A DNA stretch of 64,000 nucleotides from Methylocapsa sp. D3K7 (lineage in GTDB: Bacteria; Pseudomonadota; Alphaproteobacteria; Rhizobiales; Beijerinckiaceae): positions 1,116,001 through 1,180,000 of the forward strand of contig NZ_CP123229.1 of assembly GCF_029855125.1 (NCBI RefSeq), in the 5' to 3' direction. The position numbers and the translations under genes are program-made. Within the stretch, counting starts at the first letter, position 1. Each line of letters opens with the position of its first letter. Shown here piece by piece: positions 10,600 to 15,162 of this stretch. Under the pieces are notes generated by a model. It was not told the origin of the DNA, made no database searches, and saw only the letters and a program-made list of their open reading frames with translations.

Positions 10600-11055
10600 T
10601 TGTCCTAGTGGAGCGTAAATGGGGTAAAAGCGTCACTCGCCAACCAGCGCTATGAGGGCGCCTATCTGTTCGGGGCGATCTGCCCGGCGGCGTGGAACCG
10701 GCGCCACGCTCGCAATGCCCTATGCCGACACAGGGGCGATGCAGCTCCCCTCGACGAAATCTCCCGCAGCGGCACCAAAAGCGCGAACGCTGTTCCCGCT
10801 GCTTGACCGCGCCCACTGGCATACGACGGGCGCGCTTAACGTCCCCAGGAACATGACCCTTTCTGCACTCGCGCTCCCCGGGGCTGAACCCCGTCGAGAA
10901 TATGGCAGTTCATGCGCGCCAACAGGCTCTCAAACCGCCTCTTCGACACCTATGACGCCATCATTGACGCCGCCCGCGAGGTTTGGCGAAACGTAATCGC
11001 CCAGCCAAAAACCATCACCTCAATCTGCGGGCGGGACCGGGCCCATATCTGTTAA
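10600..11055 (+). pseudogene. IS630-family transposase remnant
   Basis: Translated in shifting plus-strand frames, this stretch gives RYEGAYLFGAICPA, then a piece resembling LPSRCPELNPVENIWQ, then WQFMRANRLSNRLFDTYDAIIDAARE and RNVIAQPKTITSI. These are in the order of an IS630-type DDE transposase C-terminal half, with internal stops and frameshifts. No terminal inverted repeats were identified. It sits directly after the dead ExoV-like gene, so an IS630 insertion may have contributed to that gene's loss. Confidence 0.7.
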
Positions 11056-11153
11056 TTATAATGACCGTTGGTATAAGCTGAAAATTACTATTTCGTAGGT
11101 ACAAATTAAATTTTTTAACGAAATTACTTGAGTTAATTCAAACATAGCAACCA

Positions 11154-11183
11154 CATAATTTGGTAGTGTCTCAGTTTGAAATT
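11154..11183 (+). repeat. left end of transposon: target duplication and terminal inverted repeat
   Basis: CATAATTT at 11154-11161 is the left copy of the 8-bp target duplication. GGTAGTGTCTCAGTTTGA and four further bases (11162-11183) form the left terminal repeat, identical over 22 bases to the complement of 15133-15154. This fits the GG-starting tips and 8-9 bp duplications of IS1-family elements. Confidence 0.93.
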
Positions 11184-11256
11184 CTGCCCCATTGATGATT
11201 CTCTCGCCGTCTCCATCTGCTTCCTATATGCTTGCCGACAAGCAATGGAGCGCTGA

Positions 11257-11421
11257 ATGGAAGCCGATCCAATGGAGGAAGGGAAGCTGGCCGCTGCGGA
11301 CGGCAAACCGTTATCAGATAACCCATATCCAGCAGGCTCTGATGCTCATGAACAATGGGCAAAAGGCTGGTACTACTTCCATTCTATCGTTGAAGACAGG
11401 GAACCGCTGGACGATGCCTAG
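11257..11421 (+). CDS. small Rmf/CrpP-like protein, transposon passenger
   Basis: A 54-residue open frame, ATG 11257 to TAG 11421. Its sequence contains EEGKLAAADGKPLSDNPYP, then GSDAHEQWAKGWYY. The pattern G-x-x-A...G....NPYP.GS..H..W..GW is that of ribosome modulation factor-like (Rmf/CrpP) small proteins common in Rhizobiales and their phages. Rmf proper dimerises 70S ribosomes, but the function of these phage- and transposon-borne versions is not established. It overlaps the next gene by 8 nt, implying coupled translation. The first gene inside the left transposon end, it is too short for routine ORF calling but has a convincing domain pattern. Confidence 0.72.
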   Translation: MEADPMEEGKLAAADGKPLSDNPYPAGSDAHEQWAKGWYYFHSIVEDREPLDDA

Positions 11422-11644
11422 AGGCCCCAAAGGCGAAAAGCGCCCCGCCGACGTTATCGGCAATGCTGTCCATGTCATGCGTATTGCCACTGGCGAGATT
11501 GAAGACACCATCCCTGACGATGGTAAAGACCCTGCCGCGAAAGCGCTTGGCAAAAAGGGCGGCGCGGCGAGAGCCAAAAGCATGACGCCGGAGCGGCGGG
11601 CTGAGATAGCGAAGAAAGCGGCTGCTAAGCGATGGGAGCGCTAA
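11414..11644 (+). CDS. small basic protein, possible nucleic-acid binding, transposon passenger
   Basis: A 76-residue Lys/Arg-rich protein that starts MPRGPKGEKRPADVIGNAV, with ATGE near residue 27. It ends in the AT-hook-like or histone-tail-like run KALGKKGGAARAKSMTPERR followed by AEIAKKAAAKRW. Proteins with this GKKGG..RA..MTPE.R..IA.KAA..RW tail are widespread in Rhizobiales and are often labelled RNA-binding, without experimental basis that I know of. I chose ATG 11414 because the family starts at MPRGPKGEKRPADVIGNAV. It overlaps the Rmf-like gene by 8 nt, and its stop overlaps the stop of the convergent ATPase gene by 4 nt. Confidence 0.8.
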   Translation: MPRGPKGEKRPADVIGNAVHVMRIATGEIEDTIPDDGKDPAAKALGKKGGAARAKSMTPERRAEIAKKAAAKRWER

Positions 11645-13131
11645 GCCAGCGCATCACCGACACTATCGGCGATGTATTGGACATCGCGAACTAATGTGAC
11701 CTCTGCCCATTCGCAGCACATGGCTTGCCAGAGAACATCCCCGCCGCACATCAATTGATTCGCTGCTGATCGTATCCATTCATGATGATCGGCCAGTGTC
11801 ATAGCGCGCTCACAGGCATCCGAAACCAAAGCAATGTCTCGACCAATTCTCGTCCAAAGATGACGCCATTTTTCGCGCTGTAATTTTTCAAAGACGACCC
11901 TTTCTGGGGCATCTCCTCCAGGTAAGAGCAGACAACCAACCGCCGCACCCTGATCGCCATCTAGAAAAACTCGCGTTGGCCGAGGAAACCTATTTGCTTG
12001 AACCATCTGACCAAGTGCTACACCAAGATTAGCAGCTCCATATGGAATAATTGAGCATCGAACAAATAGCTCGCGAGCGTGCCTGCTAAGTATTTCACTT
12101 AAAAAGACAGCTGCGCGACCGTCCTCAACATAAAGTTCACATTCTGGATGCTGTTCATCATCCATTTTCGTCATTGCAAACTGAGGGCTAACTCCATTAA
12201 CAATTTCCTTTGTTCTACCCGTTTCCAGAATGTAGATCCGTGCTGAAAGTGGCAATTCTTCTAGGATATAAGGTGAATGCGTACTGACAATTATTTGGCA
12301 TTCACGGTCGCGCGCGGCAACCGCTAAGTCTCGTATAAGTCTGCGTTGTGCCCTCGGGTGCAGAGACGATTCAATTTCATCGATTAGGATCAGTCCATAT
12401 TGAGGAAGCGGAGTCCCAAGCAATTCCGCAACTGTAGTTTCGCCTGAGCCTTGGTGGAAACCGGAATATGGCTGATTGGCTTTTGAAAGTACCGGTATTT
12501 CCCGACTTGCATCGATCGTTGATATTGCCATCCTAGCGTTATCGTAATCTCGTCCCATGATCTGTGAGAGGCGCGAGACTTGATCATCGGTGAATGGCGT
12601 TGCTGATTGCTCAAGATGTTTGTTTTTGGCGATTCTGGCGTACCCAACGCGCGTGCTTACAGGCTGGAGCCGACTAAGATCAATATAGGCTACCCTTCGC
12701 TCCGGGCGCTCTGGTTGACCGAGCCAGCGAGTAGTTGGTTTACGAACCGATGACACATTGTGCTCAACGCCCTGTTTGTAACCGAAGGTCAGCCGGACAT
12801 CCGAAAGATTATCCCAGGCTGTCTCAGGGAAAAACTCAGATGGGAACCAAGTAACGCCCCCTTGCTCCTGATTCTGGTATACGCATGCCGCTGATTGCAA
12901 CACGGTGCTTTTCCCTGATCCATTTTCTCCGACAATGGCAACGATTGGAAAGTCAAACGTGATCCGCTGATCAGACCAGCCTCGTATGCGTTGGATTTGC
13001 AGCCATTCTAGCCATTTCGGCCACCCGTTTCCTGTTTGCCATTTTGTTTCCAAACGGCGCATTTCATTGCTTAAAGCCATCTCTGCCTCCGGCGATCCCG
13101 TCGCGATAGCGGAGACTCGCGCTTCGCCCAT
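11641..13131 (-). CDS. AAA ATPase with OLD-like TOPRIM region, transposon passenger
   Basis: A 496-residue ABC/AAA-type ATPase. Walker A is VGENGSGKST at about 67-76. A signature-like HQGSGETTVAELL is followed by Walker B LILIDEIESSLHPRAQRRL (about 250-270) and the H-loop IIVSTHSPYILEELP. The C-terminal third begins CELYVEDGRAAVFLSEIL and contains RVFLDGDQGAA, matching the Glu and DxD acidic clusters of a TOPRIM nuclease as in OLD (overcoming lysogenization defect) proteins. OLD-family and related ATPases act in phage exclusion, but this one has no assigned role and is shorter than classical OLD. It lies inside an intact transposon and overlaps the convergent 11414 gene by 4 nt. I infer a candidate defence or competition function. 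Confidence 0.8.
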   Translation of the reverse strand: MGEARVSAIATGSPEAEMALSNEMRRLETKWQTGNGWPKWLEWLQIQRIRGWSDQRITFDFPIVAIVGENGSGKSTVLQSAACVYQNQEQGGVTWFPSEFFPETAWDNLSDVRLTFGYKQGVEHNVSSVRKPTTRWLGQPERPERRVAYIDLSRLQPVSTRVGYARIAKNKHLEQSATPFTDDQVSRLSQIMGRDYDNARMAISTIDASREIPVLSKANQPYSGFHQGSGETTVAELLGTPLPQYGLILIDEIESSLHPRAQRRLIRDLAVAARDRECQIIVSTHSPYILEELPLSARIYILETGRTKEIVNGVSPQFAMTKMDDEQHPECELYVEDGRAAVFLSEILSRHARELFVRCSIIPYGAANLGVALGQMVQANRFPRPTRVFLDGDQGAAVGCLLLPGGDAPERVVFEKLQREKWRHLWTRIGRDIALVSDACERAMTLADHHEWIRSAANQLMCGGDVLWQAMCCEWAEVTLVRDVQYIADSVGDALA

Positions 13132-13299
13132 CTTAGAGCGATAGACAAAGCCAATTAATTTGTCTATAAGAAAATTAAATGCTGTTTTGCCTCGTCCAGG
13201 CGCCGTGCGAGAGCGACATTTTCCTCGCTATAGGAGACTATCTGCGCAAACAGAAATTATTTACTTGACGGTAAGTATAAAAGTTCATATACAGGAGCT

Positions 13300-14175
13300 A
13301 TGAACAAGCTCCCTGTTGCCACGCGCGCCAAAATGCTTTCGATGTTCTGCGAAGGCACCTCGATGCGTTCTGTCTCGCGCCTCACGGATACGAGCATCAA
13401 CACAGTTTCGAAGCTCTTGGAGGATGCCGGGCGCTTTTGTGCTGGCTTCCACGATGAGAAAGTTCGCGGCGTGAAAGCAAAGCGTGTGCAGGTGGACGAA
13501 ATCTGGTCATTCACCGCTGCCAAACAAAAGAACGTAGCCGCGATGAAAAATCCGGTCGATGGCGCCGGCGATACTTGGACTTGGACGGCAATCGAAGCCG
13601 ACACAAAGTTGCTGATTTCGCATTTCGTTGGCGGGCGTGATGGCGAATGCGCCAAGTGGTTTATCGAGGATATGGCCTCGCGGATCGCGAACCGTATCCA
13701 ACTGACTTCAGACGGCCACAGAGCCTATTTGGAGGCCGTTGAAGGCGCGTTCGGCGCAGATGTTGATTATGCCATGCTGAACAAGATTTATGGGGCGTCC
13801 CCTGAGAGCGCCAAAGGCCGCTATAGCCCAGCCGAATGCGTTGGCTGCCGGAAAGACATTATCGAAGGCGCGCCGGATATGAAGCATGTCAGCACGTCTT
13901 ATGCTGAGCGCGCAAACCTCACAATGAGAATGCACAATCGGCGGTTTACAAGGCTTACGAACGCTTTCAGCAAGAAGTTCGAGAACCATGCTCATATGGT
14001 CGCAATCTATGCTGTTTGGTACAATTGGATGCGCATTCACAAGAGCTTGCGCGTCACCCCAGCAATGGCCGCTGGCCTAAGCGAGACGGTCATGGATTGG
14101 GCGGGAATTGTCGAGGCGATGGATGCGGACGCACCGTCCAAGAAACGCGGTACCTATAAGAAGGGTGAGGCATAG
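13300..14175 (+). CDS. IS1-type DDE transposase
   Basis: A 291-residue transposase of the long IS1-like group. The N-terminal HTH reads MLSMFCEGTSMRSVSRLTD and TSINTVSKLLEDAG. The catalytic region has RVQVDEIWSF, AIEADTKLLISHFVG, LTSDGHRAYLEAVEGAF and the IS1 signature STSYAERANLTMRMHNRRF followed by TRLTNAFSKK. The acidic residues are in VDEIW, TSDGH and the AERANL helix. It should mobilise the 4-kb unit between the 22-bp repeats. The gene looks intact and there is a plausible promoter-bearing gap of about 170 bp upstream. The longer protein, without zinc-ribbon or frameshift, distinguishes it from classical IS1 InsAB. Confidence 0.9.
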   Translation: MNKLPVATRAKMLSMFCEGTSMRSVSRLTDTSINTVSKLLEDAGRFCAGFHDEKVRGVKAKRVQVDEIWSFTAAKQKNVAAMKNPVDGAGDTWTWTAIEADTKLLISHFVGGRDGECAKWFIEDMASRIANRIQLTSDGHRAYLEAVEGAFGADVDYAMLNKIYGASPESAKGRYSPAECVGCRKDIIEGAPDMKHVSTSYAERANLTMRMHNRRFTRLTNAFSKKFENHAHMVAIYAVWYNWMRIHKSLRVTPAMAAGLSETVMDWAGIVEAMDADAPSKKRGTYKKGEA

Positions 14176-14190
14176 TGCCCACCCCGCATA

Positions 14191-14745
14191 CTACATTGGT
14201 GCCGGGCATTTTATATTTAAGGCGATGGGATTCGTCAGTCTAACTTCTTTCTGAACGGCTCTTGAAAATCTCTCTATCCGCCTCCTTTTATGTTCAGCGA
14301 ATATATCGGCCATAGCAGCGCGTATAATACCTCCCCAAAACCAATGTGAGTAACCAATTGTCATGAATGCATTCAACGAAGTATTGATATATTTTTCTTC
14401 AAACTCGGGATTTTGCTGAATAAATATACGCTCATCATCACTGTTGATGGCAGAGGTTCTTTCTCCATTAAGTAACTTCTGTCTTTTTACACTTATAGCT
14501 ATTGCAAAAAGAAATGGGAACTTTTTGTCTGCGACAGCCCCATTCCAGAATGCAAGATCGTCAATGATCGATGCCGGCAAACACCCAGTAGTTGTCAGTA
14601 AATCTCGTGCCGATGACGCATATTTCCTCGACCACTTGTCGAGATTTGCCAAGCGTTCAAGGTCACGCTTCACTGCTAACGACGCCACCCACACGGCCGC
14701 CAAAGAGACGGGAATGAGGATAGCCAACGCCAATGATATACTCAT
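14191..14745 (-). CDS. unknown membrane-anchored protein, transposon passenger
   Basis: A 184-residue protein with one clear N-terminal transmembrane segment (about 3-24, SISLALAILIPVSLAAVWVA). A soluble, mixed-charge domain follows, rich in aromatic residues around 135-150 (YSHWFWGGIIRA), and the protein ends with a basic stretch (EHKRRRIERFSRAVQKEV). I do not recognise a family. Its start overlaps the stop of the upstream 93-residue membrane gene (ATGA, 14742-14745), so the two are translationally coupled. It lies inside the IS1-type transposon, between the transposase and the right end. The AT-rich base use differs from surrounding core genes, which fits horizontal transfer. Confidence 0.7.
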   Translation of the reverse strand: MSISLALAILIPVSLAAVWVASLAVKRDLERLANLDKWSRKYASSARDLLTTTGCLPASIIDDLAFWNGAVADKKFPFLFAIAISVKRQKLLNGERTSAINSDDERIFIQQNPEFEEKYINTSLNAFMTIGYSHWFWGGIIRAAMADIFAEHKRRRIERFSRAVQKEVRLTNPIALNIKCPAPM

Positions 14746-15023
14746 TTGCCGGGTTTCCTCTCGATACGTTTGACTACCTGCTCGTGCTTGCGAGCAATTT
14801 CAAGACCAATAGCGTCAGAATCTCGTTTGATGCGATGATCCAGCTCCCGACTTTTGCGAGAATGATCATGAAAGTCTTTGATAATTCCTTTAACAATCAG
14901 CCCTAATTTATCGATTTTAATTGCGATCCCTATTGTTATTATTAGCAAAGCCGCCCCAGGCACGCCAAAAGCAGAAGCTAAGCTGGATACGGCATCGATG
15001 GTTTCTTTATCTAAGAATGACAA
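14742..15023 (-). CDS. small membrane protein with charged coiled tail, transposon passenger
   Basis: A 93-residue protein with one hydrophobic segment (about 20-36, VPGAALLIITIGIAIKI). A strongly charged, helical C-terminal half follows (DFHDHSRKSRELDHRIKR, then a KHEQVVKRIERK end). I do not recognise the family. The layout of one membrane span plus a charged tail resembles small phage or toxin-type membrane proteins, but this is only an analogy. It is the upstream gene of a coupled pair with the 184-residue protein (4-nt overlap). It starts about 110 bp inside the right transposon repeat. Confidence 0.68.
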   Translation of the reverse strand: MSFLDKETIDAVSSLASAFGVPGAALLIITIGIAIKIDKLGLIVKGIIKDFHDHSRKSRELDHRIKRDSDAIGLEIARKHEQVVKRIERKPGK

Positions 15024-15132
15024 TCCCGCGCCTCTATCACGAACGGCGCGGGAGGCTACATCGTCACTGAAATTTCAGCAATGGCCACGCATCCGTCATG
15101 CGATTGTGGCAGCGCTTTAATTGACGGCAGTC

Positions 15133-15162
15133 AATTTCAAACTGAGACACTACCCATAATTT
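15133..15162 (-). repeat. right end of transposon: terminal inverted repeat and target duplication
   Basis: 15133-15154 is the exact complement of the left 22-bp tip. CATAATTT at 15155-15162 is the right copy of the 8-bp target duplication, identical to 11154-11161. Confidence 0.93.

Follow-up and report, generated by a model that had tools for sequence, protein, structure and literature searches.

The genome of Methylocapsa sp. D3K7 (G000; 4.15 Mb in a single contig) harbors, within the 64,000-bp stretch analyzed here (the window; G000:C1:1116001-1180000), an IS1-type transposase gene enclosed between inverted repeats together with an OLD-like ATPase gene and several others, and this arrangement raises the question of whether the enclosed genes are a settled cargo, a chance assembly or one state of a changing load. 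The enclosed region (11162-15154) is an intact transposon of 3993 bp, bounded by perfect 22-bp inverted repeats and flanked by an 8-bp target duplication. We consider it likely that this compact element belongs to an IS1-type clade that normally carries cargo, and that it is a cassette-exchanging vehicle for immunity genes; the family as a whole appears to be one of small shuttles for bacterial immunity genes.

As the initial annotation had noted, the left repeat (11162-11183, plus strand) and the right repeat (15133-15154, minus strand) are complementary at 22 of 22 positions, and the 8-bp target-site duplication CATAATTT flanks the element on both sides (11154-11161 and 15155-15162). Between the repeats lie, in order, an Rmf/CrpP-like open reading frame (ORF), a gene for a basic protein (BP), the OLD-like ATPase gene on the opposite strand, the transposase gene and two overlapping minus-strand genes, and the frames of all five genes besides the transposase are open. 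The genome contains one full copy of this element and, at C1:726374, a second, diverged member of the same family (L160), whose transposase is 54% identical.

The transposase (291 aa; 13300-14175, plus strand) is encoded by an open frame and scores above the cut-off of Pfam DDE_Tnp_IS1 (PF03400; 25.0 bits against 24.1), so that the intact IS1-type transposase originally described is upheld. The best NCBIfam model is likewise that of IS1 (transpos_IS1, NF033558; E = 2.2e-13), with 50.6 bits, under its cut-off of 100. In an alignment of 21 relatives, D66 and E203 are invariant and D138 is at least 90% conserved; we infer that these are the DDE residues, and the element would move by DDE transposition as in IS1. 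The nearest named relatives of the transposase are those of a Hyphomicrobiales metagenome-assembled genome (MAG; 91% over the best segment, frame split), Methylocapsa sp. S129 and a Methylocystis MAG (87%), and three of four plasmid relatives carry the annotation 'IS1 family transposase'.

IS1-type elements and passenger-carrying relatives are already known. Members of the IS1 family generate 8-9 bp target duplications and have GGnnnTG ends, and classical IS1 elements measure about 0.7-1.2 kb and are cargo-free. The element shares with this family the DDE_Tnp_IS1 domain, the best NCBIfam model, the 8-bp duplication and ends of the GGnnnTG type, beginning GG...TG, but differs from it in its cargo and size (2.2-4.7 kb among the elements of its kind), its conserved basic protein and its single-ORF, 291-aa transposase. 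The ISMhu11 group is a single-ORF IS1 group reaching about 4.6 kb, and part of the family described here may already be catalogued under it. The ISNwi1 and ISNha5 groups of the IS1595 family, named from Nitrobacter species, are passenger-carrying IS1 relatives with 8-bp duplications; compared with these groups by their general description, the element differs in that the ISXO2-like (IS1595) transposase domain is not among the Pfam matches of its transposase at E up to 1. In five distant IS1-like records (24-32% identity), a de novo scan of limited depth recovered no ends flanked by an exact duplication of 8 or 9 bp, and we therefore claim a cargo habit only for relatives of at least about 46% identity.

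Relatives were collected by scanning one genome per species with a pattern, which gave 58 loci, and by transposase searches of whole genomes (E ≤ 1e-60), which gave matches in 45 of 397 genomes of the family, 37 of 397 of the order and 28 of 385 of the class; that the relatives are largely alphaproteobacterial is in part a consequence of this search depth. Stretches were fetched around 100 places and four plasmid loci were added. The resulting 163 loci (some of them the same DNA from two collections) yielded 130 elements with accepted ends, of which 118 were distinct, and 115 were kept after removal of the remnants L074 and L075 and of the tandem double form of L227, a locus with two elements sharing the same end duplication (2795 bp; 5598 bp for the double form). 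A further 37 transposase matches had no accepted end pair, 25 of them within 2.5 kb of an end of the fetched sequence and 12 not. Some records are MAG contigs, and the organism names given for them depend on binning.

The kept elements span 2172-4708 bp (median 3344), and their duplications are exact over 8 bp in 103, have one mismatch in three and more in nine. Because the duplication was itself used in accepting elements with diverged ends, choosing ends by the repeats alone is the fairer test. In 94 of the 115, both ends lie within three mismatches of the window repeat, and when the nearest repeat-matching ends were taken with the duplication ignored, 82 of these 94 presented an exact 8-bp duplication. 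The recorded boundaries give 83 of 94, and boundaries shifted by 1, 2, 3, 10 or 20 bp give none; the association of repeat and duplication is more than chance. None of the 115 genome elements is of bare insertion-sequence size (less than 300 bp to the left and 100 bp to the right of the transposase match). The transposase stop codon falls within the right repeat in 46 of 114 elements, and an internal copy of the end motif (CAAACTGA) occurs upstream of the transposase in 27 of 115, against 2.9 expected, making this copy a possible candidate binding site.

These counts bear directly on the explanation that the window element is a one-off composite, two unrelated modules caught between chance repeats through genome rearrangement. 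Each of its modules does exist alone elsewhere, as detailed below. The 8-bp duplication, however, is present here and in the 82 relatives whose ends were chosen by the repeats alone, a core of BP and transposase is found in 113 of 115 elements, and the family as a whole contradicts a singular event, to which we give virtually no credence.

Comparison of the elements revealed a common plan, in which a core formed by the left end, a BP of about 76 aa (113 of 115 elements), the transposase and the right end is surrounded by three cargo slots, located before BP (slot A), between BP and the transposase (slot B) and after the transposase (slot C). By our occupancy rule, slot B is filled in 114 of the 115 elements, slot C in 53 and slot A in 41. 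The BP of the window element (11414-11644, plus strand) most likely begins with the ATG at 11414, giving 76 aa, and not at a far-upstream TTG; the 76-aa part is the one common to relatives, and its start overlaps the end of the Rmf-like ORF. The five genes besides the transposase had all been counted as passengers; their frames are indeed open, but the basic protein belongs to the core.

Slot B changes its contents even between elements with closely related transposases. Among pairs with transposases at least 90% identical, not all of them independent, nine of 14 share no slot-B protein cluster and five do, one of these (L197/L198) by way of cluster c34; a slot-B cluster is shared by one of five pairs at 95% identity or more and by 15 of 37 pairs at 85-90%. 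At the DNA level, pairs with close transposases align over the left ~100 bp, over BP, over the transposase beginning with its promoter, and over the right end, but nowhere else. The transposases of L001 and L161 are 93% identical in protein and 85% in DNA, and the two elements align only at the ends, BP and the transposase; DNA identity is 93% in the left end, BP and transposase of L047/L048, 91% in the transposase and right part of L242/L243, and the transposases of L065/L066 are 94% identical. In L219/L220 the alignment runs through slot A and into slot C and breaks only in slot B, which indicates that slot B alone was replaced. At the protein level, at which separate acquisition is possible, L038 and L072 have a common slot-C cluster and different slot-B contents, and L215 and L216 the reverse. 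A quick transposase tree with 114 tips requires at least 55 changes of slot-B class (scored in five states, one of them 'other'), a figure given here without a shuffle baseline.

The initial annotation had regarded a transposase with always different, random neighbours as an argument against a cargo transposon. The neighbours do differ, but they do so inside repeats of the same kind with 8-bp duplications, which argues for cargo exchange rather than for a false element. Such exchange could take place when elements meeting in one cell, phage or plasmid recombine via the core stretches they share (left end, BP, transposase and right end), trading their cargo, after which the transposase would mobilize the new combination. 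This way of working, a shared core with exchangeable genes, resembles that of integrons; it differs in that no integrase was recognized, no attC search having been made, and in that the exchange would proceed by homologous recombination at core stretches.

To characterize the contents of the slots, 40 cargo representatives or single proteins were scanned against Pfam and 20 cargo proteins against PADLOC, so that the typing of elements rests on cluster representatives. Pfam matches comprised HTH with Peptidase_M78, HigB, P63C, nSTAND/AAA, SDH_protease, DUF6941, SocA_Panacea, DUF4760, Bro-N, Fic (two), Schlafen AlbA_2, GmrSD N and C, HipA_2 (two), Clp protease, ParA-like, SPOR and others; an Abi_2 match reached 25.3 bits against a cut-off of 25.6. 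By cluster, M78 proteins of a forward type occur in 18 elements and those of a reverse type in 22, 20 of them with c1 and nine with HigB. PADLOC matches were obtained to RmrA (E = 2.7e-59; L032), RmrT (2.2e-88 in L247, which also carries an M78 gene, and weakly, 2.2e-8, in L210), PD-Lambda-2_B (5.5e-39), PD-T4-5 (6.3e-19), PDC-S13 (1.1e-88), PDC-M66A (3.3e-73), HEC-06 (1.8e-72) and a pAgo profile (1.9e-38). At the limits used, no PADLOC match was found for c6 (L066), the commonest partner of the RmrA-like protein, for c1 (L206), the commonest partner of the PD-Lambda-2_B-like protein, or for the HigB, Panacea, P63C, nSTAND and SDH representatives. PADLOC types 50 of the 115 elements, by cluster or by the element's own scan, and a conservative list of toxin-antitoxin and defence types covers 59 of 115.

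The same inventory speaks to the view that a passive IS1-type transposon takes up any neighbouring DNA, its passengers being random and immunity genes merely common in mobile regions. Some cargo is not defence-like by name (a SPOR domain in L056, a ParA-like protein in L226), and the excess of defence genes in cargo over flanks rests on a comparison that is not symmetric: from 112 candidate flanking ORFs, taken singly from the elements and at most 700 aa long, 80 were scanned, and 18 PADLOC profiles were hit, each by one ORF, under six system names. These matches among the 80 flanking ORFs are nonetheless few, the cargo occupies slots whose position with respect to BP and transposase is fixed, gene families such as the two M78-peptidase types, P63C, SDH protease and nSTAND recur in many elements, and no drug-resistance or metabolic gene was recognized among the typed representatives; random uptake is, in our assessment, improbable.

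It is possible, if on balance doubtful, that the cargo serves the element itself, with toxin-antitoxin-like modules acting as addiction or stability genes for the transposon, plasmid or phage and not in defence. HigB, Panacea, Fic, HipA and the antitoxin-like M78 proteins are toxin-antitoxin types and fit this idea. On the other side, cargo families match known or candidate anti-phage systems of PADLOC (RmrA, RmrT, PD-Lambda-2, PD-T4-5, HEC-04 and HEC-06), and the ATPase of the window element lacks a partner in slot B and, in genome G008, occurs by itself. The self-serving and defensive roles are compatible and not mutually exclusive.

Several observations weigh against the interpretation of the family as cassette-exchanging carriers of immunity genes. 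No typed cargo is present in 22 of the 115 elements, a figure that also favors passive uptake; 17 of the 40 cargo proteins have no Pfam match at E = 0.01; and PADLOC at 1e-10 matched eight of the 20 cargo proteins, leaving 12 unmatched. L207 has no called cargo ORF, and L376, a 1323-bp element on a viral contig with an exact duplication, is as short as a bare insertion sequence and contains nothing besides the transposase and a truncated BP-like ORF, so that cargo is not strictly obligate. L160 has end repeats and no matching duplication, and BP occurs without a nearby family transposase in four fetched loci (L289, L290, L292 and L293), three of which have one family-type end nearby and which we read as remnants. 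For the window element, an exact empty site was not recovered in G003, G005 and G010, where sequence from the two flanks lies near each other without the element and is too diverged next to the insertion for the junction to be placed. Finally, the structural model of the window ATPase has low confidence (pLDDT 54) and its fold matches have TM-scores of about 0.3.

That ATPase occupies slot B (496 aa; 11641-13131, minus strand) and combines an ABC-type ATPase with a putative TOPRIM-like C-terminal part. It matches PADLOC HEC-04 (E = 1.9e-51; residues 23-427 on positions 10-413 of the 494-position profile) and Pfam AAA_21 (E = 1e-20). The proposal of an IS1-type transposon with cargo, one passenger being defence-like, is supported. 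Among five aligned proteins, the Walker A motif (G68-x-N70-G71-x-G73-K74-S75-T76) and residues I250, E252-I253-E254 and L257-H258 are invariant, as are the putative TOPRIM acids E336 and D391; the third acid, D393, is present in four and replaced by E in one. Sequence matches over short stretches were found to retron PtuA and OLD chains, and in Foldseek the best fold match was the OLD nuclease 6p74 (E = 2.4e-11, 460 columns, TM-score 0.31), with retron Eco8, PtuA and GajA also matched. In its ATPase and putative TOPRIM-like parts the protein resembles OLD, Gabija GajA, retron Eco8 and PtuA, but it is encoded by one gene on its own; no partner nuclease, helicase or reverse transcriptase was recognized in the element. 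Most likely, this main passenger would act as an OLD-family ATPase-nuclease that halts phage growth.

The ATPase is rare, with matches in four of 248 genomes of the family at E = 1e-30, the query genome included. For a 69% identical relative in G008, of the same genus, the 17 kb fetched contain no ends, BP or transposase of the family; its gene adjoins an IS5-like transposase ORF (by eye). An 83% identical ATPase is found in L330, on a 50-kb viral contig, inside an element with end repeats at 0 mismatches, the duplication GGGAAAAC, an Abi_2-like gene (by eye) in the right slot and a transposase 66% identical to that of the window, which indicates that the ATPase occurs on different cores. Integrase-, HNH- and peptidoglycan-binding-like ORFs (by eye) surround this element.

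Slot C of the window element holds genes for a 184-aa protein with an N-terminal hydrophobic helix (14191-14745) and a 93-aa protein with one hydrophobic helix (14742-15023), both on the minus strand and overlapping by 4 bp, the helices being assigned by eye. Their relatives lie side by side in G179 (L415; 66% identical for the 93-aa and 55% for the 184-aa protein) outside family ends, and the pair looks like a separate module; it would act independently of the ATPase, probably also in defence or as a toxin-antitoxin system. A blastp search (1e-4) of the ORFs from the remaining 114 elements found no relative of the ATPase or of either slot-C protein. The initial annotation had regarded the cargo as chosen, which finds no support here, as the ATPase and the membrane-protein pair each also occur without the transposon in another genome; nor is the cargo a fixed set, the ATPase being found in another element without the pair. 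In slot A, the 54-aa ORF (11257-11421, plus strand) scores under the curated cut-offs of Pfam RMF (25 bits against 27.9) and NCBIfam Rmf_CrpP_fam (27.7 against 28), and has a single weak relative among the ORFs of other elements (L063, E = 7e-4).

Besides genes and ends, many elements share a palindrome, TGCTT-N6-AAGCA, of which the window element has a perfect copy in the leader of the left operon (11229-11244) and a degenerate form, TACTT-N6-AAGTA (13262-13277), over the -35 box of a sigma-70-like transposase promoter (-35 TTGACG, 13265-13270; -10 TATACA, 13288-13293). With up to one mismatch, 56 of 115 elements have the palindrome within their left 400 bp, and 54 of 115 have it within 150 bp upstream of the transposase, where it mostly lies at -38 and its loop contains TTGAC; base shuffles predict about 0.6 for each of the two counts. 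The degenerate window copy exceeds one mismatch and is not counted. Both palindromes are probably operators that would hold both transcripts down. At least one palindrome is present in 65 of 79 elements with BP of type I, one of 32 with type II and none of four with neither type. BP was considered as the reader of the palindromes and set aside, the association with type I being confounded with ancestry.

BP usually sits between slots A and B, on the strand of the transposase in 109 elements and on the opposite one in four; the two elements without it, L197 and L198, share a different small protein, c34. None of the 43 BPs scanned matched a Pfam family at E = 0.01, a BP profile had no match in the PDB at E up to 1, and the predicted fold has three helices (pTM 0.35). 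Outside complete elements, a BP match was found in 15 of 60 genomes of relatives. Several cargo proteins of the P63C cluster (c2; L023, L025, L045, L058 and others) have the C-terminal motif of BP at their own start, as though the two had a module in common, and L160 (4039-7601; G000:C1 ~724412-727974) contains a 358-aa gene with a BP-like N-terminal motif that matches P63C-cluster proteins, along with a 163-aa gene right of the transposase.

A more far-reaching proposal, which we put forward only tentatively, is that these compact transposons form a widespread class and constitute a cassette platform, with a fixed core (ends, BP, transposase and paired palindromes) and exchangeable contents in three slots, by which anti-phage and toxin-antitoxin modules circulate among chromosomes, plasmids and phages; BP, which co-varies with end and palindrome type, would then be a dedicated factor for cassette exchange or transposase control. 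Transposons bearing such genes are known among Tn3-family elements, which carry toxin-antitoxin genes, and Tn7-like elements, which carry defence cargo. The window element is like them in its load and differs in that its only recognized mobility gene is that of one small transposase, accompanied by the basic protein. To our knowledge, the slot architecture, BP and the recurrent immunity cargo have not been described. How small immunity genes travel among chromosomes, plasmids and prophages is a largely open question, and an element of 2-5 kb with a constant core, in which cargo turns over more quickly than the transposase diverges, would provide a direct and testable answer for one lineage. 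The ends and slots also provide a route to new defence genes, candidates being the recurrent slot-B families without a PADLOC match (c2, c3, c4, c14 and c15), the slot-C family c9 and the membrane pair of the window.

Relatives with an exact duplication are located on plasmids of Hoeflea, Mesorhizobium and Acidiphilium, and a relative on a Methylocapsa polymorpha plasmid has repeats and no matching duplication. On this plasmid (pRX1; L081, 1455-2633), an annotated Shedu immune nuclease gene lies outside the family element and terminates about 0.14 kb from its left end. An alignment scan of viral contigs, in which the duplication was part of the acceptance rule, gave 196 relatives, of which 80 were kept; 43 of the 80 have ends and a duplication with at most one mismatch, 42 of them distinct and 40 exact, and none is identical to an element of the genome set. 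IMG/VR contigs may include host flanks, and phage carriage is firm only with surrounding phage genes, which were checked for L330 alone. In Brevundimonas phage vB_BpoS-Gurke (L419), an IS1-like transposase (31% identity), unannotated in the record, lies near ArsR-, ArsC-, Acr3- and ArsH-like ORFs (by eye), in a region between the annotated phage DNA polymerase and helicase genes. To the left of the window element, a stretch at about 10638-11080 is 71-72% identical to 12 other places in G000 and is perhaps the remnant of an insertion sequence.

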